NCBI GenBank assembly: GCA_035041965.1
Contig: JAPYMA010000337.1
Coordinates: 85,001-149,000, forward strand
Reading direction: 5' to 3'
DNA length: 64,000 nt
Source: Anisakis pegreffii
Taxonomy: Eukaryota > Nematoda > Chromadorea > Rhabditida > Anisakidae
Shown here: positions 22,081-57,443 of the stretch, piece by piece
How the letters are laid out: each line of letters opens with the position of its first letter
Numbering within the stretch: position 1 is the first letter of the stretch
Notes under the pieces: generated by a model
Database searches by the model: none
What the model was told of the DNA's origin: nothing
What the model saw: only the letters and a program-made list of their open reading frames with translations
Position numbers and translations under genes: made by a program

Positions 22081-22118
22081 TATGCAATTGAGGGCTATGG
22101 GTAGCCCTCAATTGCATA
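22081..22118. repeat. perfect 17-bp hairpin with 4-nt loop
   Basis: The arm TATGCAATTGAGGGCTA (22081-22097) is followed by TGGG and its exact reverse complement (22102-22118). It lies between the two repeat blocks. No flanking coding exon explains it. Confidence 0.9.
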
Positions 22119-22639
22119 CTAATCGAATTTTGGAGTTTCTAAGCAGTGAGAGGAAATCGAAATTGCTCATGTTTTTGCTCCTCTTATTTCGAGTTTGTTA
22201 AGCAGAGTCCATTTCCGTGAGCATTCCTCCTCGTCAAATGTCCTGAAATGTCTTGCGTAAAAGCAGGTTGCACATGAGCGTTTTCACTAGTTTTGCAGGT
22301 CGGTAATCTAATCCAAAGTTAGATTCTTCCAGAATGTGTTCCATATGATATAATTAACTCTTCTATATTTTTTCACTATATTCCGCTAAGCCATGACTTT
22401 TGTTCTTAATGTAATATTCCACTGCAACATAAGCAAAATTTTAATAAATTTGTAATTCTGCTTGACGTAAAGTTGTGTCGAGAAATACACGTCCCAAGTG
22501 ATGAAACTGGTACGATGAAAAAAGTACCTGATAGATCAACGACTATCGCGCTTTCGTTGGCGTAGTTAAGAACGGTGATGCAGGCAAGATGCAAATCTCT
22601 CTGGTTGGAACTGACAAGAGAAGTGCGAGATCGAGTTAA

Positions 22640-22880
22640 TTTGATTTTTGGTGCCTATAAAAAACAATTTTCGGTGACAACCAACAAATCGGGGGCCACT
22701 GAAAACAATCGAGAGTTACTATTCGATCGGTGATAAGCCAGCACCAAATTTCGATGTCACAAAACGATGCCAACTTTCGACAGCCATCGAGAAGGACTAT
22801 TCGATCGTTGGTCTTAGCAAACCGAACTTCGATTACCACTGCTCGATGCTCAAAATGAGTCCATTGATGGTCACCAATAG
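22640..22880. repeat. degenerate repeat, block 2
   Basis: Related to the block at 21.5 kb. It has ACTATTCGATCGGTGA near 22718, GGACTATTCGATCGTTGG near 22795 and a decayed copy near 22880, with GGCCACTGAAAA-type spacers. The period is about 80 bp. Confidence 0.5.
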
Positions 22881-24433
22881 GGCATTAGATCGGGAACAAC
22901 CGCAAAAATCTTGCGATTCCCGACGCTAATTTTGACATCAAAGGGAAATGACGTTTCAACAGTTATGGAACCAATGCCATCGAATGATCTCTATGGTGTT
23001 ATGAAGTGTTTATTTTGTAATCTAAAAACAGCACTTACTGAAGGACGGGTACTGGCAACGTTATTGACGCTAATTTTACGGTCGTCTCACACTTAATACT
23101 GAGGTTCAATTTGATTAAGCCTCAGCGAGTCTTCATCGAATTCTAAATTTAAGTTAGACTGAGCCGCAGCAGAATCAAAGCTTCAAGTTAGTTACACCCC
23201 TTCTAAAGTCAGGCAGACCAAAACTACGGTATGGTGACATTATTGGTGTCAAAAAAAAAAACCATTCGCTCGAAATTCATATTCGTTAGCTATTTGAAAG
23301 CACCAGAAAATACACGGAGAAGATTATGTGACACAATAAAAATGTAAAGTTTGTAGCAAACATTCAGCCAGCCTGTTCAATTCGGCTGTAATTTTGCAAA
23401 TGTAAAGGCAAGTTCCACAACTGCAAGAATTGACTCGAGTCGTCGCTGTGAGTACCCAAACTTGGAAATTGTTGCATGCGTGATTCACTGAAAGGCGTTG
23501 AAAATCCGCTTCGATCAGTGTTGAATATTGTTAGTTGGGGCCATGCTTTAGCCTAAGTCCAGGTGTTATCCTCAAGTTAGACTTAAGCTTTCAATCAAGT
23601 TAGCCTAGTTCGGAATGTTGAGCTTTCGACATCTTTATGCTCCTGGGCTATATATCAGTCGATAGTATGAATACGGTTTTTGGAGTGGCGCATTATAACG
23701 AATCCGCAATATGCGAGGTCTACATGTGTATATTTATGGATGCACACAATTGTACATCTGCAAATACGCATCTGTCGATTCACATCAGCCGAGCGGAATC
23801 ATTTCACATTCTTTCACTAGCACTTTCGAAGCTAATATCATTGATTCACTTACGTCTCTTCTCATTCCTTCATTCCAGTCGTTTTTCGATTATCTTAACT
23901 TCCAACCACTTTTTTTGTTTTATCTATTTTGTTTCTCAGTCCTTTCAAACAGTCAAATTCTTCATCATACCAGCATTATTTGCATCTTTAGTGTTATTCT
24001 CGTTCATATTTCTTTACTCTGTTGTGAGATAAGTCCCCTTCTTTTTTCTCATTTTTTCTTTTTGATCCAATCTTTTCATTACTTTGCAATTTTTTATTTT
24101 CCAGCAAATTTCCTTTTTTGGTTTCTAATATGTATAAATGGTAAATTGGCGCTATTTCCGTTTGTGTCATACTGTATCACAGCTAGTCAACAATCCCACA
24201 ACCGTTTCAAAAGTCAAAAGTCCACAATAATGCTGTCCAGTTCATCTCGGGATGCTTTCAGAAGCGTTTTACGATATCCACTTTTGCCAACTTTGCATGT
24301 TTGATTGTTAAGCAGTGAACATTGCGATTGTTATTGTTTGTGGTAAGTAGTGTCATCTGTACTCGAAAATTGGTTATAACCATCCGCTGTAATGCTTGAT
24401 TTATTGTGATAGGTGTACCCAATTTGAAAGAAT

Positions 24434-27859: not shown

Positions 27860-30800
27860 CTAAAGAGCAGCAATTCTAGCTTCCTGGGCTTCCATTTCGG
27901 AGCGGATAGCTTTGGGAAGATCGATTCCAACCTAAAATCAGTTATAGTTAATATTATTTGTTAAAACAAACTTATCGAACTTATTCTCAATTGTAAATAA
28001 CGATTAGATCGATGGCATTCATTCAATTCAGGCGAATGACTTTTATTGAAATTCGGCAATGATGAGCTCATTGCGACGAATATACGATACGTTTATTCGA
28101 TGAACAGATACTAATCTTATTCACTTGCTAAGCAGTGCAGTAAAACAGAGCGGAGAATTACTTCAATATTCGAGTAAGATTCTTATAAGCCTTCCACTAT
28201 CAATAGCTTGTAAAAAATGCGCCATTAATTTGAAACCAAAATAAGCAAAATTTTTCAAAAGAAATGCTCACAAAAATCGTAATTTATTACAAAAATATTG
28301 ATCAAGAACGCATCATTATAAACAATTTTACACCATTCTGTATGAAATTCGCGGACAGTTAGCAAGCAATGAGATGAGGAGTTTTAGTTAATCAATTGAC
28401 ATGAGACCACCCAGCAAGCCTAACCTGATCTCATGTACAGTACTGCCATAAGTAACAAAAATGAAATGAAATAACTAAAAAGTACCTGATCATCAAGGAA
28501 GTGACGAACTTCTTTTGCATCTTCATGCCAGTAGTCACCTGGCACACTCATCAAATCATCAAAGTTCACCTCCTTCTCAATACCACTCAAATTCAACGAT
28601 CCTTCAACCGGCACAACACCAATTGCCGTTTCTTTACCGATTCCGGGTTCACCATCAAGGCGACGTAAGATCCAGTCGATAACGCGGATATTGTCTCCGA
28701 AACCGGGCCACATGAATTTGCCTTCTTCGTTCTTACGGAACCAATTTACGTGGTAGATTTTGGGCATCTAAATCCTTTTATCCTAACAAATCGAACATCT
28801 TAAGATCTCTTCAATCAAAACCAAAAACAGCAGTAAAAATGAATGAACGAAAACAATAGTGATATGAATGAAAAAGCAGTGTATAGCTATACCAAACAGT
28901 AATAACCTCGCGATCCGGACGCTCAAGATTAAGCCAGTGTTGAAGGTATTTGCCAAAGTTATATCCCATAAATGGACGCATCGCCATCGGATCATGCATG
29001 ACGGTTTTGGACTTATGTTCAGCAGCAGCAGTTGCTTCCGATTTCAGACATGCGCCAGTGAATACACCATGCGTCCACGAGAACGTCTCGAAAACCAACG
29101 GTACGCCTTCAGGTCTGCATTTATTTACATTTCGAATGATTTGCTGAACGAGCGAGTTCAACCCGTGTTATGTATGTGCTTAGCATATAAGAAACCGAGC
29201 TCGCACGTTGCGAGGCTCCTTTTGATAAAAGTGACAAATAAAAAAACGATATGCAATCAACCAAAACCTTCTTCCACCGAAAACAATCGCGTCAATTGGG
29301 ACGCCTTTTGGTGATTCCCATTCTGGATGAATTATTGGGCATTGTCTGGCCGGTGCAGTGAAACGTGAGTTCGGATGTGCTGCTGGTGTGGGATCACCAA
29401 TGTGCCACTTTTGTCCCAGCCAATTCGTAATTTCAACATTTTTGTTCTTAAACATTTTCGTAATTTCAATTCTAACCTATAGAAAATCATCAAAATGTCG
29501 AACATATTAAGGGCACATTCACACGAACTATTTTACAGGGCGATAATTGAGAGTAATTTATCAATAGATCGATCAAACAGTTTGCAACCTTGAGTTCATC
29601 CTCGAGACCTTCCCAGAAATATTCACCGTTAGCAGTCTCGGCCACATTCGTAAAGATGCTATTCTTCTGGAAGGTGGCTACTGCCATTGGATTAGTTTTG
29701 TTGGATGTTCCTGGGCAAACGCCGAAGAAGCCTGCTTCAGGATTGATTGCGTATAAACGTCCATCGTCACCGAACTTCATCCAAGCGATATCATCGCCAA
29801 CACAGCGAACTTTCCAGCCGAGCAATGCTGGTTCTAACATCGCTAGATTTGTTTTGCCACAAGCTGATGGGAATGCAGCTGCGATGAAATGTTCTTTGCC
29901 ATTCGGACGTGTCACACCTTAAACGAACATCATTCAGAGCAATTTGATACTTACATACGAATAGGGTCCATCAACTCCGCTCCATACGCCGTTTAATGAA
30001 GCAGCTGGGTTTGACCAGCGATTGTTCCACTCTATTCCTTCCAAATAAGTAAACAGTCTCAAAATCAATTCAAAACAGACATCCTCAGTTTACCCAAACA
30101 CAGTGTGAACAAAAGCAAACCCATAATGAGCATATGCTCCGCCATCCATCCTTCATCATGGGCAATATTCGATGCGATGCGCAATGCGAAGCACTTCTTT
30201 CCCAATAAAGAATTGCCACCATATCCCGAGCCGTATGACCAAATTTCACGTTCGGCCGGACGATGCGCTACAATCACACGTTCCGGATTGCACGGCCAGT
30301 GGTTGATCACATGCTGTTTGACCGGTCGGGGTAGTCCAACCGAATGTATACAACGCACAAAATCATTATCACCGAGTGCATCCCAAACTTCCGATGATAC
30401 ACGAGTCATTATGCGCATACAAAGAACGACGTAATTCGCATCGGTTAACTGAACTCCGATTTTCGATAATGGACCACCGATAGGCCCCATGGAGAACGGA
30501 ATCACGTACATGATGCGACCTGCCATGCAACCCGGAAATCTCGAATCTAACTCTTCACCGAAAACCTCTGGAGACATCCAATGACCCATAATCGGTTCGA
30601 CACCTTCTCTCACATGGCATACGGTTTGATACTTATCCGATGTAACCATCCACGTTTTATTCTCCACTCGTGCTACATCCTTTCAAATAGTTTGTTGATG
30701 AGAAGTTTGGCTCATTTAAAAACATTATCAGTTACTATAAAAATAAGTGATATTCATCAAATAATTCCATTTCTACTTATCGATAAAATTTGGGTGAAAT

Positions 30801-37721: not shown

Positions 37722-38636
37722 TCAACGCTGCGTTTCTTGTTTCACTTCAATCTTCTCGACTGTCATGTCTGGGTTCATATTGGTCGCCTCGAGAATCGCT
37801 TGACTTAGTTCCTTCAACATAGCTCATAGAAACGATGTGCAATTGCATATTTGCAAGAACAATAATTATCGTATTATTCAAAGTACTGCTTGTAATCATA
37901 ATGGTGATGATAATTTAAAACACAATTGTTGAATAGAATCATTTCAGCTTTATAAATTAGTTAACTTATCATGTCCATTCTTCAACTCACACAAAAACCC
38001 AATCACAACAACGTCAATATCAGCAAGCGCAAAAATACGTTGATTTTAAAAATCATATCAGTGACGTCAAAAAAAAAATCCCACTGATTCTATCTTCAGT
38101 CGAGCAAGTAATGATTTTATTGAATTGAATTGAAAATTTTAAAAATGAATGAATCTACTGACAGCATCATGATCGATATTAGCACCGGAATGAATAGTGA
38201 CGCGATGCTCAACATGAATTTCAACGATACCATCCTTTTCGGTTTTGTACTGAAACAGCGCACAAGTCGATTAAAACAAACACTATTGTAGTTGCAGTCA
38301 ATTTATTGCTCAGTAAACATAGTGATATCTGAGCAAATCAAGAACAACTAAAACGGATTTTTCACAAACGATACAGTAAGTAACAGAACAACCACTAACA
38401 GTAATAGTTTCCACCGTACGATTGCCTGATGTGATGGTTCGACAGGAAATCAACTCGCCCGGAATATCGTCACGTTTCTGATCATCATTTTCGATGCCCA
38501 TCGTCAGTGGTAGTTGACCTGCTTCGAACGCCACAGTGTGACTTTTCGTTTCGATCACTGGAGTCGTGCCACTCACATTAGAACCCTCACCAATTGGTGT
38601 CATGATTTGCTGCGATCTTTCAACTGTTTGAACATC
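37722..38636 (-). other. frm-1: protein 4.1 C-terminal domain exons
   Basis: Three phase-0 exons, 38400-38636, 38163-38249 and 37722-37811. Blocks recognisable from vertebrate 4.1 proteins are [40 protein letters not shown] and [20 protein letters not shown]. In vertebrates this CTD binds partners such as NuMA and receptor tails (family knowledge). Its presence shows that the giant exon lies inside a complete 4.1 gene and is not a neighbouring gene read by mistake. Confidence 0.92.
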
Positions 38637-41600
38637 CTATAATGGCATTCGTGATTATACAATATTATCAATCAGTGTAATGTTGTTATTCTCATTTGCG
38701 TTGCAGTGGGCGTTAATGAGCTTCTGTTTTTTTTTGAAATTCAGAAAGAATAGAACTTCCATCTCATCGTCACACTAAGGTAAGCAAGGCTGATGAGCTA
38801 GAAGCATACTGGAAATAACCAACAGAGATGAAAGCATTTAAAGATATACCGATTCTCCATTCTTTGCTGTTGTTGTTGAATAGGTCTGATAAGTCTGACG
38901 CTGGATGGTATGCTTCACCTGATGGGTTTTGACGGTCTTTCTTGAAAAAAAATTGTAAATATCAGATCGAATGAGGATTCGGTATGGATGGTGAATAGAG
39001 TAATGCAATCCCACATCCAGATAATTAAATGTAATCCCAGATTATGTCATAAATTTGTACTGAACGAATTATTCGAGATATCAATGCACATGCTCTACTG
39101 AGAATTTTCAAGTTTTCTGAAATTAAACCACCAACCATCTGCTTAGCTTAGGGAACACAAAATGTTAGAAGCCCAAAAACAATTTATCACTAATCTACAC
39201 CGCATGTTTAAATTAAAATGTCAATCCCACTTCCCTTATTCATTTGACTGAACGCAAGTAATTAAATAAAAACAACTGACTTAATAACATTTCCGTATTT
39301 ATCTATATCCATAACAACTGATTCTGGCTCTTCTGTCGATCCGTGCCACGATTCAATGGTCGTGTGTGGTGTTGACGTTTCCTTGAATGCACAACAGAAA
39401 TTTTTTTGAATCAAATGAACTTTCATTAATCTGCATTAAATATGAAAATATTGAGTATGATGGCTAGCAGTTGCTCAGAACTGATGTTTTCGTTGTTTCC
39501 ATCACAATTTCTTCGTTTGATCTTTCAACTGGGAATGAGAATAATTCCTCAAAATAATTATACATGAAAAATACAAAAATCCAATAATTAGCACTCGAAC
39601 TCATTCGAAAGTGGAATTTAAAGTGAAAAAACAACTACGTCAACGGATGTTGTTCCAGTTTCTCCAGTTTGAAATGGACTATCAGTTTGTTCCTTCGAAA
39701 GGACACCTGCCTCCAACGTTTCGATTTCCTTAGCACGTTGCAACTTGTCTTCATCATTCTAAAATCACATTCCTCATGCTAACAGTTTCACCAATATTCA
39801 CTCAACAGAAGTACATTTGATTTGTTTTATAATGCTGTTTATAAAGATCATTACCATTCATATCAATTATAACAATGTGGAGAAAAACAGCTATTTTATT
39901 CATAAACTCATTATGTTCTCAAGTAGTTCATTCAGTCAACAACTTTGCTCAAGCTCAAACACCAAAAGCATTTGGCAACAATCACACTTCGGAATGGTAT
40001 TAGAAATATGAATATTGAAATGAGATGCACTGTTCGCTCTTCAAATCCACTTCGGAAGTGAATACAATGTTTGACATGTTCATTGTTCAAATAAACAACT
40101 GCACATTTGCCCCCTCATATAAATTGCGACTTAACACACGTTTCAAATAACTACATTGTTACGTTCGAGTTTATGAGCAAACCAATCAAATCCGTACTGT
40201 TGCAAACGAATAAAACTTAGTTGTGCGTGATACACCCTTAAGAATTTTACACGCTGCCGATGAATACGGCTCGATTAAGCGGTTGGTTAAGTCACGTACA
40301 AATTATCTTTAAGAGAACAAATATATTATACGAACAACTGGATACGATGACGCATACAATGAAGCGCTGACCAAAATGAAATTAAAATGGCCAAAAATGA
40401 TGCGAAAAACTGCGAAGAAAAAAATGAATGTGGTTTCCTGTCCAAAAAGGTGAAAATTACGTCAACAACTGAAATGATATTAAAAAAGCGATTGAAGCGA
40501 TGACCTTTATGGGAACAAATCCAGTCGCATTTTGCAATATGTGTTTCGATGACTCCTTATCGACCAAGGTCGTTGAAGCAGGCGTTTCACCGACGAGTGT
40601 ACCACTCTCAGTGACTTTCTTATCAGCCGATTTTTTCCTTGATTCTTTCTTGTCGGATGACTTGGTAACAGTCTAAAGAGACGTAAACGAAGAGAGAAAC
40701 AGAAATGCACTTAATCCTGAACGGAATTTATTTTCTTTGGCACGCTAATGTGTTTTTCAAACTAGATGTAGCAAGATTGGGAAGATGCGATAAAAATGAA
40801 ATATAAGAAAAGACAGTCAAATAAGTCGCATAAACTAAACAACAAATCGCCAGACCACTGAACTAATCAATCGATCAACTACCATAAATCATACATACGT
40901 ACTGCTAATTCAATAAATTATCAGTTTGCTCTGTGCGCATAGCTAACTGCTATCATTCCGCATTTAATTCAAGAATCGCTGATCGCATCTTCTAATGGTG
41001 ACCAATAAAAAGCTCCTCGGAAAAGTTCGGAATTATGGGGAATATGATGAAATGAACCAAAAATACAATTATCTGTTACAAAATAATTCCAAATAATCAT
41101 AATCATTTCAATGAACTGCGTTAATATGAAAGCGATGTAAACCTTGCTAAATGTGAGCGATATAAGCGTTGTTAGATTGCGAAAAAATATATGGAACTTG
41201 CAAATCATTTGAAAATACACAAGCACTGATAAATTAGGAATAAAAAATACTAATATTAAATTCATCACCCCAAAAGCCATTCATTATGTATAATCTAAGG
41301 CATAGCACTCCTACTGGATCAGTTAGAAGAACACGAAAAATTGTTGGAAAGAATACGTAAAAACGTAGAGAGATTGGATATAAAAAAAAACGGCAACAGC
41401 AATCTAATTAACGGTTTCATCGAAAATGATCGACTGAACGAAACGATCACCAAATGAAGCAGTAGGTGCATGAGCAAATATGTTAAAGCTAGGGCTGCAT
41501 TCAATACTAATAAATGATGAATTGAATTCATAAATAAACCACTTACCTGTGTTATTCGCCGTTTAATATAACCAATCAATGATGCATTACTTGCTCCAGT

Positions 41601-44600
41601 TACTTGTTGATGCTCATCCATTGTACCATCTGTGAGTGCTGAATTCGGCTGTTGTTCTACGGATATATTCGACTCCGCTCTAGACGATGGCTTTACTGTT
41701 TGAATATCGATCACTTCTCGATCCTCCTCTGGTGCTTCTTTATCCAGCACTGTCGTTGTTGTTGTTGTTGCAGTGATTATACGCTCACTTCGATCATCGC
41801 CACTCGGTAAACAAACGACATCAGCAGCACTTGATTGGCTTTCACTTGGTTTAACTTGCTTGTGAATACCACTCTCATCAATTCGTATAGTTGCTGTTTG
41901 AACATTTGATGGATACTTGATGGATGTAGTACCATCACTCGCCATCGGATCACTTATGTACGTTTGAAGCGTGTAAAATGATGGCATACGCTCATCACTT
42001 GCTTCTCGCCCATTATTGACATCCGTACTGCTCGACAATGCATAGTCGGTTGTCGCACGAGAGCTTTGTCCAAAAAGTGCTGGACGTCGAATCAACAACG
42101 CATCATGATCCACTGAACCACCTCCATCTGAACGCTCAACAACACTGGTAACATGAGGGGCTGCTTTGGTACTTGCCAGGGAAGATTTGATGGACGATAG
42201 CTCGATTTTGCGTCCGATTACTGAAGGATATTGTTGTGCTTGTTCAGCAGTTCGAGAATCAAAATCTTCGACACGTCTGAATGCGTAAATAGAAGTTGTA
42301 CCGGTGCGGTTTGTACTTTCCGGTAGCATCACACCACTGTCAACAGAAGACGGTTTTGCTTTATCTACTTGAAGTGGAGTCGTTTGCAACTGTTGAGTTG
42401 GAGCAATTTCTTTCTCTCGATCACTATTTTCATATCTTTCGCCTCGCTCTTGAACCTGCTTACTACTATCAATCACCACTGATGAATCTGCCGGCTTACT
42501 ATCCGGCACCTCAAGCTTCCTTTCGCTCTTTTCATGCATCGAATCTAATCTTTTCGTAATCGGTTTATCCGAATGGTAATAAACAGAACAAAAGTCGCCA
42601 ATTGCCGCGGTTGGAAGTTCATTATCGCGACCAATTTTTCCGAGTTGCTCGTCCTCAGCAATTATAGAATCTTTTGATTCTTCAGGTGATAGAGCAGAAA
42701 CAGATTCACTTTGAGTGGATTGAGAACCTTCAACAATGTCACCTTTTGATTTTCGACCTTTCCAAAAAGCCATTAAACCTCCACCACCAGAATCGCTTCC
42801 TTTATCTGTTTTCTTGGAGGAACTTTTATTAGAAGGCTGCTTAACTGATTTGTTACCTTTGTCATTGTCGAAACTGGTTTCATAATAATAAACAGAAGCA
42901 TGTTCTTCGAGAGGGACCAATTGGAGTTCCTTTTCAGCGCTGATACTCTGCAGTCTACTCTCACCTAAAATCGTGAATGATTCTGTACCTCCCTCTGGTG
43001 CTTTTGATTCACCATATCGTACAGAAGCCAGCTCGTCAGACGGTGGAAGAACGTCGAAATCCTTTTGACGATCAAGGACATAAGAACAAACTGGATCTTG
43101 CTCAGCGGTAGTCTGCTGTTCTCCGAACTGCCATAGTTTCCGACCTGTGAGGAATGATCTGAAAACGCTTTTAGCACCAGTCCGACCAGTAACACCATCA
43201 ATTCCTTCCGACTTATCTTGAGTTCGATCGTTCAATTCTCGCTCATTTAATGTGATCGATTTTGTTTCTCCACTAAGATCAGATCGCCCTGGATGATAAA
43301 CAGATGATAAATCACGAATTGGTACGGGTGATAGCTCAACAGCTCGATCAATGCATTCTATTGGACCTTCATAAACGGTCGAATCAACCGTGTACAACCA
43401 TCGGTTATTTTTGACATTTTCATCAGTCGGTGTTTCGGATTGTTCATCGTTACTTGGATGACTCATCAATGATGGATGATCAAGAATGGTATTCAACTCT
43501 TCAGTTTGATTCAAAACGTGCATCTTCGAGGCAGAACTTGAAACACCGCTGGGAAGTGATTTCAATTCACTCGATGTATCCGTTCTTTGATTAGGGGCGT
43601 CATTCATTTCATTTTGACCCTTTGACTTCCGCGTTTCAGCAGAACGCCAGAACGTGAACCGATTCCCTTTCTCAGTTGCTTTATTATCAACTTCTTTGGT
43701 ACCCTCAGCTGGACCTATTTCATTATCGTCACCTGCTTCTTCTTTTCTTTCATCTCCTTCACCACCTGAAGCACCTTTTATCAGATCATCTTTCTTCCCG
43801 AGGTTTGATAACACTGGCAACAACTTTTTGGATCTAACAGATGATTGCCCAGAATGATAAACAGCTGCATACTGACGTATAGATGAAGGAGGTAATTCTT
43901 GTTGCTTTTCCACCACTAGTAAGGGACCGCGGTATGGGTCAGTAGTTATTTGATAAGTGTCGCCCTCATGTGCAGCACGGACGAATTTATCCTTTTCGTT
44001 CAAGTTCGATATACCCGAGTGATATACAGCAATCTTCGTCCGCAGAGGCTCATAGGCGATATCATCGAACTGACAAATTTCATCCTCGTGACCCGGAATG
44101 TTGGGTGGGCCACCACTGGACAATACGGCCTGTTGCTCCGGTTTTGCTGAATCTCTCTTCGGTTTGCGATCCGAGGAGCGCCAAAATGATAAGAGACCTC
44201 CAGCTTTTTTGTCAACGTTCCTATCTTTTGAAGACTCAATTGCTACTGATTTCATTTCTTCATCTTCCGATGAAGAATTGTAGCTGGAATTATCATCCTC
44301 ATGATCTTTTGCAAGAACTTTTGAAGGTCGTTTGCGATCTGTCTTCACAACTGATTTTCCGGAATGATAAACACTAGCCATTTCTCGAATTGGTGTAAAG
44401 TACAACTCGTCATCATGAGCAATCACTTCCAGAGGCCCGTCATACTGCACCGTCGACAAGCCATAGCTTTCAGGTTTGATAGCATCTTTTTCGATGAAGC
44501 TTACTTCACCTTCATGACGCAGATGCCTGAATAAACGATAGTCCCGAAGACGGTCTCTTAGCTTGTAACGTTCTACACGCTCTTCGGTCGGTACTTTTGG

Positions 44601-47600
44601 ATGAGTTTCGACGATAGCACCACCGGCTTCTTTCGGCACACGTTCCGAAGAACGCCAAAACGAGAACATGCCACCAGTAGTCCGAACTTTCCGTTTACCA
44701 CTGTCACTCTCATCACTTGACGATTCTTCGGATGAGGAGTGATCTACTAGACGATCTGCAGAACTTCTTCCTGCTGTGGTGGACTTATTACGATTGCTCT
44801 TCGTATATGAAATACCAGGATGGTAAACGGACGAAAAATCTTTGAGCGGACAGAATTCGAGTTCTGTCAACGGTTCACATCGTTGCAAATTACCTGCGTA
44901 AACGGCTGAAGACAGTTTATAAGTTTCTGGTTTAACTTGATCTTTCTCAACAAGCTCATCATCACCACGGCAAACAACACGACGGAACAGATGGTAATCA
45001 GCAAGACGATCACGCATTTTTGTTTTGATATGTGGCCGTTTTTGCAGCTCCAATTTTGTTACTTTGCTTTTCCTCAGTGGTTCCGATGCCAATTCTTCCG
45101 AACGTAACATACTATCCACAGTTCCGATGTAAGCAGGAGATAATGCATCGACTGGAAGTGTTGGTTTCTCAGCGTTAGTACAGGCAACATCAGCATCATC
45201 ATTAGCAGAATGCATGTTGCGCACATCTTTTGGCTTTTGCTCTGAGGAGAGCCAAAACGAGAGTAAACCACTTGGTTTCGTTTTACTTCCTTCGCCTGCA
45301 GCCTTTGAGCTCTTCTTCACACGCAAAATAGCCATTTGCTTCTTTTCAGATTCCTTTTCATGACCCCCACCCGTTAGAGGCTGCTTTTCATCTAGTGTTG
45401 CTCCATGAGACAATCCAGAATGATAAACTGAACTTGATTCATGAATTGGAACAAACGCAAGGTCACTGCAGCAATTTGTTGTTTCCAACTGCCCATCATA
45501 ATGGTCAATAGAAATGTTGCCGCTTTCCGGTCGTAACTCCCCTTTTTCGATGATATCAACTTGATCAATTCGTTCAAAATCTTTTTTACTCTCCGCCGAG
45601 GCGTCTCCACTGATTGATTGCCTCGACGGTTGCACCCTACTGGTAGCTACGTGACTCATCCGGGCAAACGCCACTTCTCGAGTTGGTTCAAGTTTTTCCT
45701 CTTGCTCAGCAACACTCTTTTTCAGTTCAGTCGAAGCAGTTTCATCGACTAAGTAAGGGGTTTCGGAGATATTTCCTGACGGCCCTTTAGACTCTTTCAC
45801 CTTTCGATCTGGTGTGCGCCAAAAAGAGAGCAAACCACCCGTAAGTGTCCCTTTATCTTTAGTTTCCTCAGTGCTAGATACATCTTTCATACGAAGCACA
45901 GCGCCCAGTTTACTGACTTTAGCCTCATTTTTATCTTCTACAGTCTCCCCTTCATCCTCATCACTGCTCTTTTCTTCTTTTCCGAAGGATCTCAATCGTT
46001 CTGATAAAGCCTTCCTTGGTTTAATATAAGACGTACCCACGTGGTAAACAGACGAGTGTTCATGAATTGGCTCAAAAGGCATTTCATTAACACGATCAGT
46101 ATTTTCTAACGATCCCAAATATGGTTCCATAGACAGTTTATACGCTTCAGGATTCACATTTTGCTTCTCAACTATTTCTGTTTCGCCATCAACAAAACTC
46201 CTACGGAAGAGACGATAATCGTGGAGACGTTCTTCAAGATTCGGCTTTTTAACTGCAGACATCTCGAATGTATTAGGCTCGTTCCCTGCAGTTACTGCAG
46301 ATACTTTCGTCATTTCTTGTGACTCAGTAACTGCTTTTTCCGTTGCGTTTTTATCCTTGGAATCGAACGATTTCCAGAAAGAAAACAGACTTGTACCATA
46401 TCGTTTTCTTCTTTCTTCGTCTTTTGATGTATCCACCGGAACATTACATTTATTTTCATCCACTTCTTCACCTGAGGATGATTCAGTGATTGATGAGGTC
46501 GATGATGAATCATCACTTTTCTTCCTGATGAAACCCAAAACCAACTTTGCGGTTGGCTTCGTTTTTTTTGTTTTAATTAAAGATGTACCAGGATGATATA
46601 CAGAAGAGTGTTCACTGATTCTTGCGTATGGCAAATCGCTCGTATGGACAGTGTTTTCCAACCTACCTTGGTAAGGTGCACTTGACAAGCCATACGTGTC
46701 CAAATTGACATGCTCTTTATCAATTACTTCAACATCACCCGCATGCGTTACATGACCAAACAAACGATAGTTGTTAAGTCGTTCACGTAGTTTTGGTTTT
46801 ACTATTCCATGTAATTTAGGCATTGTAGCCAATGGTAGCTCAGCTGGCAGCTCGTCAGCCCCCTTATTTTCTGTAGTACCAGGATATTCTTTTTTACCCA
46901 CTCCTTCACCGGCTTCTTGCATGGATTTTCGTTCCGCAGCTCGCCAAAACGAAAATACGCTACTAGTTCCTTTATCAGTTTTTTCTTTCCGACTTTGATC
47001 GTGAGTGCTCTCATCTGACGACGATTCATCACTAGACGAGCTCTGTATTTCGCCATCTTTACGTGATTTGGTGATTCTTCCGCGTTTTGTTTTCACAAAC
47101 GATAATCCTGAATGATAAGCGGAAGCATATTCTCTGAGTGGTGCTGACGACAACTCATCGGCTCGGCTGACGATTAGCAAGTCACCTTCATAGCACTGGC
47201 TGCTTAACTTGTAAGATTCTGGATCTACGTCCTTTTTATCTACAACATCACTTTCACCTTCATGCACAACACGGCCGAACAGATGATAATCTTTCAGACG
47301 TTGATAGAGCTTGGGTTGATTCATTTTTAAGCGAGCTGTTTCGATACACAAAGGTTCGCCCCTCATTTCAATTGATTTGCTAGTATCGAAGATCGGTCCA
47401 CCATAAGGTTCACTCGTTATTTTGGGGTACTTTTCAGTTCGAGAAGAGTTGCTTTCAACGTCCTTCGCTTGTCGTTCGGAAGGGCGCCAAAATGAAAACA
47501 AGCCGCGATTGTCCCTTCGAGAATCACACAATGATACATTAACACTCTTCTTTACGCCATCAGTCATATCTTCTTCGTCTGTAGAACCCGATGATTCCTC

Positions 47601-50600
47601 AGATTCATTTTCCTTGGAAGGTTCTTCTCCCTCCTCATGCCGTTTTTGTCTGTCGTACGACAGCCCTGAATGATACACTGATGAATGTTCACGAATTGGT
47701 GTGAATAAAAGTTCCTCTTCGTTTCGTGTTGTTTCTAATTCGCCTAGATAGGGAACTGAGGATAATTTGTATGATTCCCGATCAATTTCACTTTTATCGA
47801 CGACGTCCTCGTCACCTCCATGCACAATGCGCCCAAACAGCCGATAATCGTTCAAACGTTTTCGCAGTTTCGGTTTAACTTTACAACGAAGACTTTTTTC
47901 AGTTTTCGTCAGTGGTTCCATTTGTAAATCTTTTTCTTTTACTGTTCCATCAATTGGAGCATCACACGTTTCTTGTGCATGAGGACCTGAGCCATCATCA
48001 TTTGTATCAGAGAAATCAGTGCTCTTCTTTTTTCTATCCGATGATCGCCAGAAACCGAACAACCCACCACTACGACTATCTCTGTGTTTCTCGAATTCCC
48101 TTTCAGTACCTTTGACGAAGATTAGAGCTTTCTTCTTAACTTCATCACCAGTTTCGTCACTTGACGACTCAGATGATAATTCCAATCGACTCACATTAAC
48201 TGCAGGAAGTTTCGTCTTTTTTCTAGACTTATCAAATGATAAACCGGAGTGATAAATAGAAGAAAATTCTTGGATTGGAGCAGCAGTAAGCTCTTCTTGG
48301 CGATGCATTTCATCAATATGACCTCTGAACGGATCCGATGATAGCTGATAAGATTCAGGAATTACATCAGCTTTTTCGATAACTTCGGTTTCACCAGCTA
48401 GTTTAATACGACCAAACAGGCGGTAATCTCGCAATCGCTGCTTCAGTTTTGGTTCTTTCATAGTCGTTTCTTGAACCCTTTCAATTTCAGTCAACGGTTG
48501 TGTCTTCATTTCATCAATTTTTTTCTGTTCATGAACGATTACCTCTCTCCCACTATCCTCTGTCTTTTCCATCTCAACGTCTTTGCCAGTTTTTTCATCT
48601 TTCGCATGCTTTTTATCCGATGAGCGCCAGAAGGAGAATAAACCCAGGCTCATACCACCGATGCTCCGTTTGCTGCCATCCACATCTTCTTCTGTGGAAG
48701 AAAATTCTTCAGATGTTTCCGTGTGCCGCTTACCCTTGACGTAGGATGTTCCAGGATGATAAACAGAAGAGGATTCGCTGATTGGAACCCACTGGAGATC
48801 TTCTTGATGATTTGTACATTCTAGAGGCCCATTATAAGGAACGGATGATAAATTATAGGATTCAATTGGTATCTTCGATTTTTCGATAACTTCCTCATCA
48901 CCATCATGACATGAACGCATGAATAAATGATAATCACTAAGTCGATCGCGGAGTCTCGACTTCTTAGCTTGTTGTTTTACTGTCGATTTAACAGCAACAT
49001 CTAACGATTCGGAAGGCATTTCTTCTGACCGATCAGTTGTGCCAATCGGTCCAGTTGTCAAGTCGTCTTTTGTATTTGCCCCTGCATCACCAAGCTTCGA
49101 TGAACAAACATCATCGTTCGACGGTTTCCTACGCCAGCCATGTAGGCGCCAAAACGAGAAATGAGCGCCACCTTCCTCACCGCTTCCAACTGACTTTTCA
49201 CTGTGGTCTTTTCGTTCGATATTTGGAGCATTACTGCTCGACTGGTGTGCATACTTCTCGACTGTTTTTTCAGCATCGTCATCACTCGAGGATGAATCAC
49301 TTGATGCATCAGCGCCATGGTGCTTATTAGAAACGTCGCCTTTAAAAGCGAAGCCGAACTTTGGAAGTTTTGATTTTTGGCTCTTGATAAATGAAATTCC
49401 CGAGTGGTATACCGCCGAGTGATCGCGTAATGGAGTTGATGGAAGATCTTCTGCTCGGTGAGTCATATCTACTGGGCCCTGATATATCACTGTTGAGAGA
49501 TGGTAGGTTTCAGGTTTCACATCACATTTCTCAATCACTTCATCATCACCTTGATGAGAAATGTGACGGAACATCTTACGTGGTTGGTCACGAATCTTGG
49601 TGTGCTTCACTGGATGATCACAAGAGTAAACGCTCACAACTGTATGCAGTGGCTTAGATGGAATATCGTTCGATGGAGAGACGTTATGTAAGGGGCCAGT
49701 ATAAGCATGCTTGGTAATGACTGGATAACCAACAGTTTCTGCAATAACAGGATTTCGCTCTTCGCCCCTTCCTTTATTTTCCAGTTTTCCTTCCGGTGAT
49801 TGCCCAAGTATGCCTTTGCTCTCTTCATCTACTACAACCGTTCCAGATGGTTTTTCTGCACGCACACTCGAGTGTGCAACTACAGAGTAATGAAACGGAG
49901 CAGAGGAAAGCTCTTTTCCCTTGTCAAGACTATGCGAGTGTTCTTCATACGAGATGGGTGGTGGCATGGCAGACGCTTCATCACTACCGACAGTCTTTTC
50001 CTGAACGTGCTTTTTGAGGGTTGCCTCCAATGGCTGGTCTTTATCCATATTTATAGGCAATGGCTCACGTGGAAGATCTTTTCTATACGTTGTGCTATCA
50101 AGATGACCATTGTAACGTTCTGATGTTATTATAGGATATCCGCGTTCATCAGTTTGTTGAGCCAATTTATTTTTAGATTGTTTTGATGGCATTCGTAAGA
50201 AAGAGAACATGCCACTCGTTGTGTCTTTCGTTTTTGGCTCATCCAGACTTTTTTCAGCATGGTTTCCCTCTTCTGTGATTGTGCTTTGTCCCGAATGATA
50301 CTTTGCGGAATACTCACCGATTGGTAATGATGGCAATTCACCTTGCCGAACTGTTTGTTCATATGGCCCGTCATATTGTGCACCAGAAATACAGAACGAG
50401 TGTGGTTTTGTTTCAGATTTTTTTGCTAAATCAGAGTGATCTTGATACTCACGATCAAACTGTTTACAGACAACATGCGTCTCAGGCATTTCAGTTTGCT
50501 CTAATGAGTGTGTCTTTCCCAACTTTACACTTTTTAAAGGTTCAGACTGGAGCTCTGGAATTTTTTCGATGTTATCAACGTGCTCACTATGTGAACGTGG

Positions 50601-53600
50601 AATTGTCGCCGAATAAGAATCGTCAGATTCTGAAGTTTTAACCTGTTGCGTATTTGCATCTCTCGACTGTCTCCCATAACGCCAAAAAGAAAACAATCTA
50701 GGGCCACCTCCAGCACCAGGTTTCTGATCGTCTTTCTGAAATTCCATGACATCATCAGCTTTCTCTTTTCCTTTGTTATCCTCCGGCACTGCCGAACTGG
50801 GTGACTGCTCCTTTCTTTCTACACTCTTTATTCGTTCATCAGAATCTCTGGAAGGAGTCGGTATAGGCTTTTTGTGGCTTTTCATAAATGACATCTCCGA
50901 ATAATAAACCGATGAATGGTCACGAATGGGAGTCATATCGAGCTCTCGGTCACGTGCTGTGATTTGTAGAGTGTCTTCATAAGAAGTGGATGGTGAACCA
51001 TAATTTTCAACTTTAACAAATGACTTTTCGACCACCTTACTACCATCTTCAAGATGAGCATTCCCATACAAGTGCTCCATTCTGGTTGGCTGCAACTGAT
51101 CCGAGTCATAATCTTTTGTTTTAGCAATCAGCAATTGAGGAACGTCATCTGCATCATCAGTTGCGTAATGAGTAGGCTGTCTAACACCTGACTGCGATAC
51201 TGTGTATGTTTTACCACTCACAGTGAACAATTCACGGCCTTTTTCGATCAGTTCTTGCCCTCGTTCACTAAAACGTCGCAAAGTGCCACCTCGAGCAGCA
51301 GAACTAGAAGAGGAAGCTGTTTTTTCAACATCAACGGACGGTTTATCACGTAAATGGAGGATTGCTTTCTTCTTGTATTCGTCGCTAGCCAGTTCTTGTT
51401 CTGAATCCATGTCTTCATCAGATAATTCAGACGACGATCCTCCAATGTAACTACTACTGAGATCGCTAATGCTCCGTTTTTCCTCTGCATTTGTGCTTCC
51501 TACACCAACACCTACGCCACGACTCGATGACGATGTCGTAATAGGGCGCAACTTTCGTCGTCTGGATTTGGGTACAGATACACCACAATGATACACTGAT
51601 GAATACTCTCGAATTGGTGTACAATGCAATTCCTCATCACGCCTCACCGTTTCTAACGGACCGTCATACGATGTTGATGGAAGCCCATATAATTCGGGAC
51701 GAACATTGCACTTCTCAATCATTTCCGTTTCACCGCCATGTTTTGCATACCCGAATAATCTTCGTCGCCTCTCATTGGACGTTTTGGTAAGTGATTTTGA
51801 GGTTTGCCTATTCTTCTCGTTTACCCTTTGACCGTGCAACTCAAATGAGCTAGCGCCAGTTGTTTTCTCAGTCTTGTCAGAGGAGACTCCATCATAATAT
51901 ACTGACGAATAGGCTCTGAGTGATGCAGCTGATAACTCTACGGCACGTTCGGTTCGCATAACTGGTTCCGTAAGAACAGCAGTTGCTTGAGGATATGTTG
52001 ATTTCTTGATATCTTTCGCATCAATCACTTCTTCAGCACCTTCACAAATTGCTCGTTGAAAATCAAAAATATTACGATTACCGCCACGATAAGGCTGAGT
52101 CATACCGGAATGATAAACGTTAACAAAGTATTGAATCGGCCAACCAGCCAATTCATCTTGTTTATCCAAGTGCAGATTATGCAAGCGATCATCTTCGATG
52201 TCAATATCTGCACCTATATTTTTTAAGTAAGTTGTTGTTGTAGAAGGTTCATGGGCAATTCGATTTTTCTCATTTCTCCACTTTGTTCCTGGAATGAAAA
52301 CAACATCATCGTCAGCATCGACCGGTGGTTCACGCATTGGTCCTCCAGTTCGAGAGATTTCCTCATAATGCCCTGGATGATACGCAACACCCGTGCCTTG
52401 TAACGGATCAAACCGTAGGTCACTTTCTTTCCGCAGCTGGGTGACCTCATCAAAATCGTTATCAGCGCCAGTTTGCTGCAACGAAAACAAATTTTGCGAG
52501 TTAATAGCTTCAGGAAGCTGATTGGTTCCATTACTTTGGCATTCGTTTTTAGACTTGAGAAGTGTGAATCGTTGTTGATTCATTAATGGTGGTGGTTTGG
52601 AATGTGGAAGGGGTGGCTTGGAATGTGGAGTGATATCTGACTGAGCTGCTGCAGCTGCGTTCGATTGCGGATAGGAAGAAAAACGAAGCGGAGAAGTGGA
52701 AGAGGATGAGTAACGATAATTAGTAGTGGTAGCAGTAGTAGTATGATTAGTAGTAGAAGTGCTGGTAGTAGTAGTAGCAACAGTAGTAGTTGTAGTAGTA
52801 GGACGGCCAAAAGATGTGGCAGCAGCGGTAGTAGGAGTAGAGCGATATAACTGATCATGCATTAACGCTGCGGAACGATCCACAACAGACGAATCATTTC
52901 GCGTTGTCGATTCACCCACCTCGGTTAGCGTGGTAGCATCATGTCTTGAATACAACACATTCTCATCGCTATCGTTCAGCATTCTGTTTCGTTGCTCTTC
53001 GATCGTAAGCGGCAACTCCTCCATTGTTTGGTGATTCAGCGTGTACGTTTTCTCTAGCACTGTCATCTGGAAAGCAAATAAACCTTAGCTGCACTGAATA
53101 TAATTGACTTCAGCATTCTTTTGCATCATGGCTGAGATACAAATTTTATGTTTGCTGAGATTCCTTAGATTTTTTTGGCTATTCGATGTGATTCTTTCAG
53201 TTCTCTATAGCATTATGACGCGCCGTGTCGATCCGTAGCCGACTGCCATCACGATGTAAAAAGATAAGGAGCACTGAGTCACTGTGGCAATTATAATTGT
53301 AATTAATGCAACAGATAGCAAACAAGTTCTAAAGCCTACTTCACGTGAAGTGCCATCGTCCACATAATGCAATGGTGATGTCTGTTGATTATCGCCTATT
53401 TCTGGCGGAACTGAAAAAACTTAAAATTGTTTTATAGAAATTGTGTGAGTAGACACTACAAAATCATCAAAATTAATAATGAAACATCTTCTATAAGAGC
53501 AAAAACAATTTTAAAAACAACATTAGCCAAAACAGAGAATGACACAAACCATTTTCATCACTTATTGTTGCTATACGTGCACTATGAGATCGTTGTACTG

Positions 53601-56600
53601 CATCCGAGGGATGGCCAAACATTTGAGAAGCCATTTTGGATTGGAAGTGCGTTCTCCCCTGATAACGGAACCTTCCTGAGCCCCATCTGAACAGTCCTTT
53701 GTGTGGTTTTTCATCTGGTTGAATCAGTCTGAAACAAAAACGTATAAAGTTTGAACGAGAAAACTTCAAGAAAAAGCCACAAAAGAAATGAGTGGTTGGA
53801 TTAACTGAAAGAATTTGGATTAAGAGAATGATATTGTTTACTGGCAGCTTACCTGAAGAAAGTATGATGCTCGACACAACATTTCCAAATGCGTTTTGCA
53901 CTAGCGTAATCTGGTACCTTGAGTACGAACACTGACGCATTTTTGTCGAGCTGAACAGCATAATTACATTGAAAAATTTGAGGAAGAAAAAATATGCAAT
54001 CTACAAAACAAAAAAAAGTGAAAGTAATAACAATTCACCTCGCCGGGTTGCAGTTTAATGGTAAATGTGTTTCTCCGATAAGCGATTTTGATGATATTCT
54101 GCCAAATGAAACGATGGATACGTATCTGATCGCAATATATATAAATTCCATGCGCGCACACACCGACCTGTACTGGTACACCTTTTGAGTCCTGTAAGAG
54201 AAATACAATGGAATGTAATAAAAACTGATGGTGACTGATGTATAATCAAAAAGGCGAATAACGTCTTAAGAAGTTTCTTGAAATGAACTATTGGGTAAAA
54301 CCTTTTTAATACCCATATATGCAAATACAATCAAAGCACAAAAAATCGTACACAGTTTACCTTTGCTGGAAACAGGAAGACACCATACATGCTCAACTTC
54401 TTAGCGTTATCCAAATAATGTTGTTCGGCTTCTGCCGGTGTTTCACCCCTTGAATAAACAACAGAATATAATCAGTTCTTTCAAATTAAATGCTCCTTCG
54501 TGGTGGTAATATATTATGAATGGAACATAATTTTTGGATTCAGAAAAGACTTATTAAAAAACGAAAACAACATACTTATGCTGTCTGTGCAGTTCTCGAA
54601 CCTTTTCATAAAGTGTTGCCGACGGTACAGGTGCTAATCGACAATCTTGCAAAAAATCATCATAATCCGGCGTATCTTCATAATCACCTCGTTCCGCTTG
54701 CACTACATATGATCCCAATAAAGAATGTGTAGCCAAAGTAGCGGGAATCCTACGAGATATTCACATGACAATTCACGTAATGATTCCAAAAACAATACGA
54801 GTGCACCACTTATTACAGTTTTGGTCAGATGACAAAGTTACTTACAATAGAAGTTTCCAGAATCTGGAATTATACCGTTCGTTATACAGTATATTGAACG
54901 ATAGTATACTTAGGTATCAGGAAGGGTTATCAGAAGTTTCAATATCCAGGAATTCATATCAAAATCTCACCTATTTCCATACGGTTACTGAAGATTTCAG
55001 TTGTTTAGGAAAATGATTAAGAAATAATTCAACTGCACTCATCTTCAAATCTTTCACAACTCAACATACGAACATGTAAGCGCATAATCAAGAATCAATT
55101 ATGGTTGATTCATGTCGATATGGACAACTGTTCAAAAATTCTCAGAATGGACTTGAATTTTTTTGAATTTCAAGATTTTTTTCATATAATTGATACATTT
55201 CTCCAACTTTGAATAACATAGCAATATGTTGCTCACCACTTTTCACAGTGACCGGAGAAAAATCAGTGCTAAATGAGTAAAGTAAACTTTAAAACAGTTA
55301 GCATACTCTGCATTTAAGTTAAATTGAATTTTGCATTCGCGCATTTCCCAAATAAAATTCAACGTTGCTTGGTTTGCTGTCTGTAATCTAACGGAATCTA
55401 ACAAGCCAACCATGAAGAGACTAATTTTTCAGGGATATGAAAAAGGTAATTCATCTTTTGATAAGTTCAGAAGTACATTGATACAGTGATTCAGGCAAAC
55501 CTTTGATAAGTTCTTGTCAGAAGTACAATATATGAAAAATAAACACTGCTGCGTAAAGGAGTTTACTAGAAACCTCACCTTCCAGTATAAATATCATGAC
55601 GAATTTGAAGTGTGAGATAATAGCGAGTCAAATCATCAATCAAAGCGGTTGGATCAGGCGGATAGAATTTTACTTCAAAGTTGAACACCCATGGATGACC
55701 TGGAATGGTAAATAATAAACTATACTGGCAATGAGTAAAGGGAAATAAGTAATAAATCAATAACATTGTGTCAATTATAACAACAATTATCAACAAGAAC
55801 TGTATTGATAAGATTGGCCAACTTCTTCTTCATCAGTGAGTGATTTGAAGAGTACCATGCAAATCAAATGATTCGATTTTTTGTTTTATGGTTCTGTTCT
55901 TATAGGTGGAGGAATTTGAGCATGTCAAAAAAGGAGTAAAGCAGCTCGCAAATCTTTGAAGGTTGATTTTTTGTTTATTTCCGCCAAAAACGTTTAACAA
56001 TATTTTCAAAATGCCTATGCGATCACAAGAAAGTGATCCCTTTGATACCACCATGAATTCACGATAGCAAACTTTTTGATCATAGTATCAATTCATTGAT
56101 GTTCTTTCGAATTAATGCTGTTGTTGAAGATGAAAGATGGTGGTTATCTAGATTATTGGAAGGAGGAGGGAGATATTGGCTGTCGTCAAGAGAGGGTGTG
56201 AAAATCACTTAATGAATAACCTTTCAACTGCCTGCTAATTCGTTTATCTTCGTAAATCCAATGCTGAAAGATAAACATAAATTAAAAAATATTTCATCTG
56301 CCGGTCAGTTGTTAACAAGGGCAACATTCTGAAAGGATTAAGAACGTCGAGCAGGCGATTTCGAGAGAATCAATAAAAGCAGAAAAGAAAAAAAGAAGCG
56401 AACAAAACTTACTCGATTTCCATTTTCATCCAAATACGATAATCCAAAATAGTCCTTCTCGGCCAACTTCAGATGCTCAATCACTTTATCGAACAGTTCT
56501 TTACCTTCAGCTTTCTTCTTCAAAAAAAAAAACTGACTAAACAAGGATTTATTGAATGTCGAAGATACAAAACCAATAATAATTAGAAATATTATAACTA

Positions 56601-57443
56601 GCAAACATCAGAATAATAGTAATTTTAACAAAAACAATAACAAAAGTATAGTAGATTAACGAAGCGTTTTCAACTGTTGAGCAACTGCAACAACTCAAAG
56701 GGCACATAGAAGGAACGAAAAAAATGGACGCAACAGCAGTAGTGATTCATGAAAAGCAAACATAATGAGATATTCTTTGATTTGATTGAAAGCTAGACAA
56801 ACAAATTTTCGAACAGTGCTCAACAATTTGCGCTTTATAAAAAATAACAGTAACTGCAATCTAGTAAATACCCATCCACTTAGGCAAGGATATAGAGAGA
56901 TGCGATAAGCAAATGAATTTTACGGAATACATATCACGAGTAAATTAAAACACACTAAAAATGTTGACGAAGAGCATTTCAAGAAGGAAGCTAACGCAAG
57001 GTGATATAAGAAAAAAAAGTAGAATTTGATAGGAAGATCGCACTTTCAGCAATAACTATATGCATCAAAAATAAAAATTCTTCGCTAGACGTCACATGAA
57101 ATAAGTCTTTGGAAATCGAGTGCGAAAGAATTTCAAATTATAATGTTCGAAATATTCTTTCTCGCACTACTGAATGTGATCAGACAGATGAATCGAATAG
57201 TAAATTTAAGAAGAAAACATAATATGAATACCACTTTTGGTAACCAATGAACAAACAAATGAAGGAATAAATAGATGAGGTACTAACCGAGACGTGAAAA
57301 ACCTCAGTGCTGGCATCTAAAAGATGAACGGTAGCCGACTGCAGATGCGAATCGCCTGTGAGATTCTCGTTCGCAGACTGCTCCAGAACGGGATTGTTAT
57401 CACTATCGGTTGTTGTAGTCACTGTCGTCTCGCCTTTACCCAT
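37722..57443 (-). CDS. frm-1: giant protein 4.1 homologue (FERM-FA-giant repeat exon-4.1 CTD)
   Basis: A membrane-skeleton adaptor of the protein 4.1/coracle family. The FERM module binds membrane proteins, and the family links them to spectrin-actin. Exons, 5' to 3': 57288-57443, 56413-56517, 56221-56263, 55579-55699, 54576-54749, 54361-54448, 54039-54191, 53853-53950, 53550-53728, 53340-53410, 41547-53066, 40505-40672, an uncertain exon within 39639-39757, 39482-39547, 39289-39381, 38850-38936, 38400-38636, 38163-38249, 37722-37811. Apart from the uncertain one, every junction is GT-AG with consistent phase. FERM covers residues ~35-313, then the FA motif FRYQGRT, ~3,840 repeat residues, a Lys/Ser/Thr-rich region and the CTD ending [14 protein letters not shown]. 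Full length is about 4,500 residues. The ATG follows an acceptor (TTTGCAG, exon from 57450), so the 5' end is trans-spliced or has an upstream leader exon. Confidence 0.9.
39639..39757 (-). other. frm-1: ambiguous exon of the protein 4.1 gene
   Basis: A good acceptor (GATTTTAG) starts a phase-0 frame reading [13 protein letters not shown]. The second half reads naturally ([19 protein letters not shown], ending TTSVD and a GT donor) only in a different frame. The block is 119 bp, one short of a multiple of three. Options are a shorter exon at 39639-39710 using an AG inside the block, a skipped exon, or a one-base assembly error. Confidence 0.4.
42560..51780 (-). repeat. frm-1: tandem protein-coding repeat array in the giant exon
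   Basis: Repeat unit, in protein order: (A) RLxDYRLFGRxxHxGexEVI, then [20 protein letters not shown]; (B) [20 protein letters not shown] followed by KxK; (C) an acidic Ser/Glu/Asp linker; (D) [15 protein letters not shown]. Complete A+B units start near 51.77, 51.09, 49.59, 48.94, 48.44, 47.86, 47.31, 46.79, 46.24, 45.57, 45.01 and 44.55 kb. Extra B copies continue to about 42.56 kb. D motifs lie near 50.69, 50.20, 49.15, 48.63, 48.05, 47.49, 46.94, 46.37, 45.82, 45.25, 44.66, 44.18, 43.64 and 42.76 kb. The central units repeat every 445-640 bp. Copies have diverged at the DNA level but keep the key residues, which indicates selection on protein. Confidence 0.88.
52690..52830 (-). repeat. 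frm-1: trinucleotide-rich poly-Thr coding tract
   Basis: An imperfect GTA/GTT-type trinucleotide repeat (plus-strand reading). On the coding strand it reads as threonine codons with Ser, Ala and Val interruptions, including runs such as [20 protein letters not shown]. Such tracts change length easily, so it may be polymorphic. Confidence 0.8.
53340..57443 (-). other. frm-1: FERM and FERM-adjacent exons of the protein 4.1 gene
   Basis: Ten exons encode 396 residues. A short Thr/Asp-rich leader (52-residue exon 1) runs into the F1 lobe ([20 protein letters not shown], then RISRQLKG and [12 protein letters not shown]). The F2 lobe follows ([28 protein letters not shown]), then F3 ([31 protein letters not shown]). 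The FA segment carries GRFRYQGRT. Each block aligns by eye with the matching part of vertebrate protein 4.1 in order, with no missing lobe. The last small exon (53340-53410) ends at phase 0 and so joins directly to the giant exon. Confidence 0.93.

Follow-up and report, generated by a model that had tools for sequence, protein, structure and literature searches.

A predicted giant exon of diverged repeats in a protein 4.1 gene of the nematode Anisakis pegreffii

The ankyrins, one of the partners of spectrin, are known for their use of giant exons. As described in the literature on these genes, the long exons of ankyrins consist of about 25% serine plus glutamate, with S, E, T, D, K and P together exceeding 55% (PMC5135030), and UNC-44 AO13 has a STEP/hydrophobic character (PMC7159925). 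Just part of the repeat array of Drosophila Ank2 is needed (Jegla et al., PMC5135030). The current study concerns a protein 4.1 gene of Anisakis pegreffii that is predicted to carry a giant exon of its own. It lies on the minus strand of a 64,000-nt stretch of contig JAPYMA010000337.1 (assembly GCA_035041965.1, nt 85,001 to 149,000 of the forward strand), referred to below as the window, whose own numbering is used for all coordinates within it.

The probable orthologue in Caenorhabditis elegans, frm-1 (ZK270.2), contains ten tandem 609-base repeats that are found nowhere else in that genome (PMC4039745). The gene is listed among those whose coding regions give rise to circular DNA, alongside ttn-1 and tag-80 (PMC5633380), encodes a protein of more than 1,000 residues with MBL-1-dependent splicing (PMC11524483), and appears in a splicing-microarray table comparing L1 with adult animals (PMC2265522). 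In the excretory canal, its product FRM-1 is the presumed anchor of the spectrin SMA-1 (PMC7557474), and its ERM domain alone was used in another study (PMC4642926). ZK270.2 is also listed as a match to a Strongyloides expressed sequence tag (PMC1525192).

The protein 4.1 gene and its giant open frame

The gene model comprises 18 coding exons (A to J, the giant exon, and K to Q), which join into 4,533 residues without an internal stop. The giant exon (nt 41547–53066, minus strand) is 11,520 bp in length and consists of 3,840 codons with zero stops, just as the first-pass annotation of this DNA had placed it. It sits within a stop-to-stop run of 3,921 codons (nt 41322–53084, minus), the runner-up in the window being 289 codons, and the remaining five frames across the exon contain 139 to 429 stops apiece. 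On base composition only, the log10 probability of so long an open frame is about -108. Both borders carry strong splice signals, as had also been claimed. In leave-one-out scoring, the acceptor (TTTGCTTTCCAG/A) reaches 10.5 and ranks second among the 17 acceptors of the gene, while the donor (CAG/GTAAGT) reaches 10.0 and ranks first among its 17 donors; scores as high occur at 7 of the 3,310 AG places and 3 of the 3,444 GT places on the strand, with the giant-exon sites counted in. A frame-specific coding signal spans nt 53066 to 41550, matching the two predicted junctions, in a scan whose training set was partly the giant exon itself. Two features were absent from the earlier annotation: the exon is filled with diverged repeats (described below), and its first codon, directly after the acceptor, is an ATG in frame with the FERM exons.

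Upstream of the giant exon, the joined head matches the Pfam families FERM_N (E 5e-22), FERM_M (6.3e-18) and FERM_C (1e-24), as well as FA, the FERM-adjacent domain (E 9e-9 on the joined head and 2.8e-10 on exon I alone), all above cut-offs. Exon A (nt 57288–57443) is coding from its ATG, and the acceptor upstream of it ends at nt 57451. By the gene model and Pfam, exons B (nt 56413–56517) and C (nt 56221–56263) carry FERM_N, D (nt 55579–55699) a further part of FERM, E (nt 54576–54749) and F (nt 54361–54448) FERM_M, and G (nt 54039–54191) and H (nt 53853–53950) FERM_C; exon I (nt 53550–53728) carries FA, and exon J (nt 53340–53410), placed by the gene model and splice score, ends in phase 0 at GTAGGC. 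Downstream, exons K (nt 40505–40672, phase 0 to 0), L (nt 39639–39758), M (nt 39281–39381) and N (nt 38850–38940) are placed by the gene model, and O (nt 38400–38636), P (nt 38163–38249) and Q (nt 37722–37811, the last coding exon, with stop TGA) carry the 4.1 C-terminal domain (CTD; 4_1_CTD, PF05902, E 4.6e-13, likewise above its cut-off, positions 4–107 of 107). All of these exons are on the minus strand. The best PDB matches of the head are Band 4.1-like 3 (E 9.1e-100) and 4.1R, in a range to 7.5e-91. With the three FERM lobes, FA and CTD all present, the gene is, judged by its domains, a protein 4.1 gene. Its orthologue in nematodes is presumably the one named frm-1 in the literature.

The giant exon is in phase 0 at both boundaries, and the in-phase joining to FERM+FA on one side and to the CTD on the other, which had been proposed beforehand, is borne out by these phases and by the Pfam matches. 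Since the outer phases are both 0, inclusion and skipping of the exon each preserve the frame; when it is skipped, 693 residues remain. As a gene model, the giant 4.1 that had been proposed, with its roughly 4,500 residues, is thus well supported. No Rfam family matches in the window. The rest of the genome was searched in an assembly of 122.7 Mb (1,740 contigs), and searches within this genome score the best candidates only. The FA domain was found above the cut-off on C258 (this gene) and C252, and below it on C85. A genome-wide search with 4_1_CTD gave zero matches, this gene included, and is uninformative on paralogues, as the domain is probably split over short exons.

Repeats of the giant exon and a second repeat locus

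Most of the giant exon is occupied by a repeat array (nt 42576–52010, minus). An alignment of fourteen units covers about 78 residues, with 26–56% identity to the first unit and the consensus KLRxRLxDYxLFxRxxHxGxxEVIEKxxVxPExYxLSSxxYxGxLExTxRxxELxxxPIRExSSVYHSGxS. Units typically combine four elements: KLRxRLxDYRLF, which is basic and helix-like; a box that closes with SVYHSGxS; an acidic, serine-containing stretch; and GLFSFWRSS, which is aromatic and basic. The second of these, which can also be written YxGPL...SVYHSGxS, is the conserved box, and two columns are invariant and six nearly invariant across the 14 units. Of the 26 places that a 46-residue core profile picks out in the exon, the 14 units used for training score 63–77 bits, nine further copies exceed the maximum of 3.9 bits obtained from 800 shuffled sequences, and three places (2.9, 2.4 and 0.7 bits) do not. 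Eight of the nine weaker copies lie within the array, and the ninth is just upstream of it (nt 52101–52166, minus). In comparison with 300 shuffles, YHSG cores number 18 (maximum by shuffling, 1), FxFW boxes 14 (maximum 1), DYRLF boxes 9 (maximum 1) and acidic serine runs 10 (mean 2.2, maximum 7). The strong copies start 153 to 230 residues apart, except for one gap of 498 that contains weaker copies. Units in the middle of the array are about 150–210 residues long, the eight central ones being 152–207. The giant frame matches nothing in Pfam or PDB, the repeat profile has no match in PDB, and none of the 14 units has one in Pfam.

The units retain residues while their third codon positions drift, and the giant exon is therefore protein-coding. 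Mismatches per codon position across the 14 units are 0.448, 0.365 and 0.663, and where two units have the same residue they use different codons in 1,020 of 1,730 comparisons, a pattern that we read as long-standing selection on the protein. Codon usage correlates with that of the FERM exons at r 0.89 in the giant frame, while the two alternative frames reach 0.68 and 0.53. In composition the exon is 21.8% S+E and 49.0% S, E, T, D, K and P (FERM head, 12.1% and 37.1%), and a hydrophobic block was not found in it (maximum KD19 0.78). An AlphaFold2 model of one repeat unit, computed from a shallow alignment of eight rows taken from the exon's own units only, has a mean predicted local distance difference test score of 54, a predicted template modelling score of 0.15 and two short helices. 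By this prediction, disorder along the chain, interspersed with short linear motifs, is the most likely state of the insert.

Among the best candidates scored in the genome, the repeat units gave significant matches at one other locus, at 65.4–78.1 kb of contig C1692. The strength of the match varied with the query unit, from E 0.38 with the first to 0.0027 and, at best, 4.8e-8 with others; weaker single matches occurred on C1699 (E 0.047), C620 (1.4) and C936 (1.5). A comparison of profile with profile matched C1692 to the 4.1 core over 37 columns (probability 97%, E 5.9e-11), and the core profile scores complete units at C1692 with 33–35 bits and partial or diverged ones with 6–16. This array (nt 63895–79053 of C1692, minus) is interrupted by frame breaks at several points and by a short stretch of N, and consists of SVYHSGRSDE units in which two near-identical types, DYPTSEPYEGPFAITNRTSDVEGEPLRTFVSVYHSGRSDE and its sister, alternate with a 480-bp period, while the outer copies are diverged. 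Both genes thus have the box YxGP..TxR..E[LV]..xPL..xVSVYHSGRSD in a giant, GTAAGT-ended frame, but near-identical 480-bp tandem units are seen only at C1692. With the C1692 array as query, C1692 was the sole match among the 27 of 30 candidates that were scored. A repeat family common to two giant genes is the most novel part of the finding, and the shared box provides a handle toward finding a putative partner.

Several identities were considered for the C1692 gene and rejected. It does not appear to be a 4.1 paralogue, as it was not among the contigs returned by the FA search given above, nor is its array the giant exon of unc-44, which sits on C1686 with a giant exon of its own and, as far as read, without the YHSG box. 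Pfam matches to the array, namely gpUL132 (over the cut-off), Gemin6_C, CreS_N and Integrase_p58_C (under it), were discounted because no single stretch passes, and were taken to be sums over identical repeats. Neither FA nor ZU5 was found in the vicinity, nor an ankyrin-repeat pattern over 40–110 kb; FERM lobes were not searched for. Exons are visible upstream of the array near nt 80351–80881 and 81087–81272, and the next recognizable gene in that direction (110–120 kb, minus) has exons that we take to be of a LATS/Warts-type kinase.

Elsewhere in the window, exons at nt 28486–30682 (minus) presumably belong to a GTP-type PEPCK gene, and others at about nt 12006–12672 (plus) to one for an RtcB RNA ligase. 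Short similar stretches (KDYSIVG, KGLFDWW, TDCSIGG) recur in several frames at nt 20701–22923 (plus) and have the look of degenerate repeats.

How the giant exon may be used

We consider it probable that this is a frm-1-like protein 4.1 gene of nematodes, in which a giant in-frame exon, probably subject to alternative inclusion, encodes a disordered, multivalent spacer. Skipping of the exon would give an ordinary FERM-FA-CTD 4.1 of 693 residues, and its inclusion the protein of 4,533. The FERM head would dock on membrane proteins and the chain of the insert would extend inward. With each short motif present 9 to 18 times along it, a single molecule could gather numerous copies of one partner some way from the membrane. 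A likely switch would be phosphorylation at the serine stretches, and alternative inclusion would decide between a short adaptor and a long, multivalent 4.1.

Several points weigh against this reading. The donor of exon J is middling (score 5.2), and the disorder call came from the shallow alignment mentioned above. The C. elegans frm-1 repeats were described from sequence counted as intron, beside alternative exons (PMC4039745), possibly because the exon is skipped in some isoforms, and no frm-1 passage found calls that array part of a giant exon or of a giant-exon 4.1. Further points come from the start of the Anisakis exon, where the ATG in the right frame is the first codon after a good acceptor. 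Because of this ATG, a spliced-leader (SL) transcript could yield a giant without FERM: the coding part of such an SL trans-spliced, or else internally promoted, transcript would begin with this exon, with translation starting after TTTGCTTTCCAG and splicing onward to the CTD exons, and the FERM+FA exons would end separately. Trans-splicing most likely does occur in this worm, as the genome holds 132 exact copies of the SL1 22-mer, compared to 0 of its reversed control. (On C14, from nt 549, the SL1 sequence recurs every 552 bp, in a tandem spliced-leader cluster.) A separate end for the FERM+FA exons would be offered by exon J, which can be read past its donor for 44 codons to a stop (nt 53205–53339, minus) and then has a hydrophobic end (2.13), and by a variant poly(A) hexamer, CATAAA, which occurs once in the 273-bp intron that follows. 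However, values of 2.13 are reached by 7 of 68 random GT read-throughs of at least 19 residues and by 6 of 17 of at least 44, and this tail was rejected as an alternative 4.1 end, being within chance. The intron is also without AATAAA, exon J ends in phase 0, and the ATG continues the reading frame of the FERM exons. We therefore judge an exclusively FERM-less giant unlikely, although giants with and without FERM may both be present.

At its other end, the giant frame continues past the donor for 75 codons to a stop (nt 41322–41546, minus), and frequent read-through to nt 41322 would produce a giant 4.1 in which the CTD is replaced by a hydrophobic tail that may insert into the membrane. The tail has a KD19 of 2.22, which none of 68 random read-throughs attains, and just one of them is equally long. 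Such tails are nonetheless common in the AT-rich DNA here, since 15 of the 68 exceed 1.6, and the best donor of the gene stands at nt 41547, where the coding signal ends. The tail was rejected as an alternative end, though it lies at the edge of the control, and we regard regular read-through as very improbable. That the whole frame arose by chance or by faulty assembly is scarcely credible in view of the stops in the other five frames, the codon usage, the synonymous drift between repeats and the motif counts, and nothing was found that speaks for it; in addition, units only 26–56% identical to the first would be too diverged for a collapse artefact.

A further explanation concerns function and is not opposed to the spacer. 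The repeats could serve as serial docking sites for a single, putative partner dedicated to them, which would also be bound by the C1692 gene product, and length itself would then have no role. Conservation centres on the YHSG box while the strong copies, one gap aside, start anywhere from 153 to 230 residues apart, the same box occurs in the unrelated gene context of C1692, and a fraction of the Drosophila Ank2 array reportedly suffices (Jegla et al., PMC5135030). This is a serious possibility, to which we give somewhat less than an even chance, and it is compatible with the disordered spacer favored above. More tentatively, and with the odds clearly against it, the repeats may constitute a family particular to nematodes and present in two giant genes here (among the best candidates scored), one grafted into a 4.1 between head and CTD and one without a known domain. 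The two products would then bear the docking box dozens of times and bind a common multivalent partner, building a cortical lattice that would run alongside the giant-ankyrin system and not depend on it.

Comparison with known systems

Like the vertebrate proteins 4.1R, 4.1G, 4.1N and 4.1B, the worm gene encodes a FERM-FA head and a CTD, but the insert of 3,840 residues is found only in the worm gene model. The Pfam spectrin-actin-binding domain was not found in the head, tail or insert of the worm protein. Drosophila Coracle also has a FERM-FA head and a CTD, and 4.1 proteins of the Coracle type are not known to carry the spectrin-actin-binding domain either.

Being a single-exon, in-frame insertion of more than 3 kb into an adaptor gene, the 11,520-bp exon of the gene model can be classed as a giant exon. 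It resembles those of the giant ankyrins (UNC-44 AO13, Drosophila Ank2 XL and AnkG 480 kDa) in being one giant exon on an adaptor that partners spectrin. Those exons are rich in Ser, Glu, Thr, Asp, Lys and Pro, and some have repeats (PMC5135030); the 4.1 exon has repeats too and leans the same way in composition, at lower values. The same genome offers a direct comparison. On C1686 (nt 37001–67000, plus) is an unc-44-like ankyrin gene with ZU5, and with death-domain-like and tail exons read by eye, the giant exon of which begins at nt 52170 and, as far as it was read, covers 4,943 codons, reaching at least nt 66998. This exon has Glu/Thr repeats, five hydrophobic blocks, 27.6% S+E and 53.6% S, E, T, D, K and P, which fits the way UNC-44 AO13 has been described (STEP/hydrophobic, PMC7159925). 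The YHSG profile does not match it as far as read, its only hit, of 2.6 bits, falling in another, short frame; conversely, the giant 4.1 frame showed no ankyrin repeats or ZU5-UPA in the Pfam search and no kinship to the part of the ankyrin giant exon that was read. Unlike the giant ankyrins, the 4.1 exon is milder in composition and without a hydrophobic block, and no sequence common to the two was seen. The parallel with ankyrin drawn in the first-pass annotation therefore stands for the architecture (a giant phase-0 exon, Ser/Glu-rich and predicted to be disordered) and falls for sequence; as far as read, the giant exons of 4.1 and unc-44 appear parallel in kind and unrelated in sequence.

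The first-pass annotation knew of no described counterpart within protein 4.1, which is true only in part. A giant-exon 4.1 is undescribed in the passages of open-licence literature searched, where the one paper that brings a giant exon together with protein 4.1 means that of ankyrin (PMC6546920), but the frm-1 repeats, the circular DNA and the product of more than 1,000 residues are in print, though none is interpreted there as a giant-exon 4.1. In the literature found, the C. elegans array is reported just in passing, in papers on splicing motifs and on circular DNA. The gene is probably orthologous to that of Anisakis, and its 609-bp repeats, equal to 203 codons, are near the unit size observed here. 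By this analogy it is very likely that frm-1 of C. elegans has a counterpart of the giant repeat exon, one that differs in being a regular 609-bp array, whereas the eight central Anisakis units are 152–207 residues long and the copies 26–56% identical to the first, and the proposal can be tested in that species. If the giant 4.1 is real, the device known from ankyrin also arose on a second adaptor of the membrane skeleton, with unrelated sequence.

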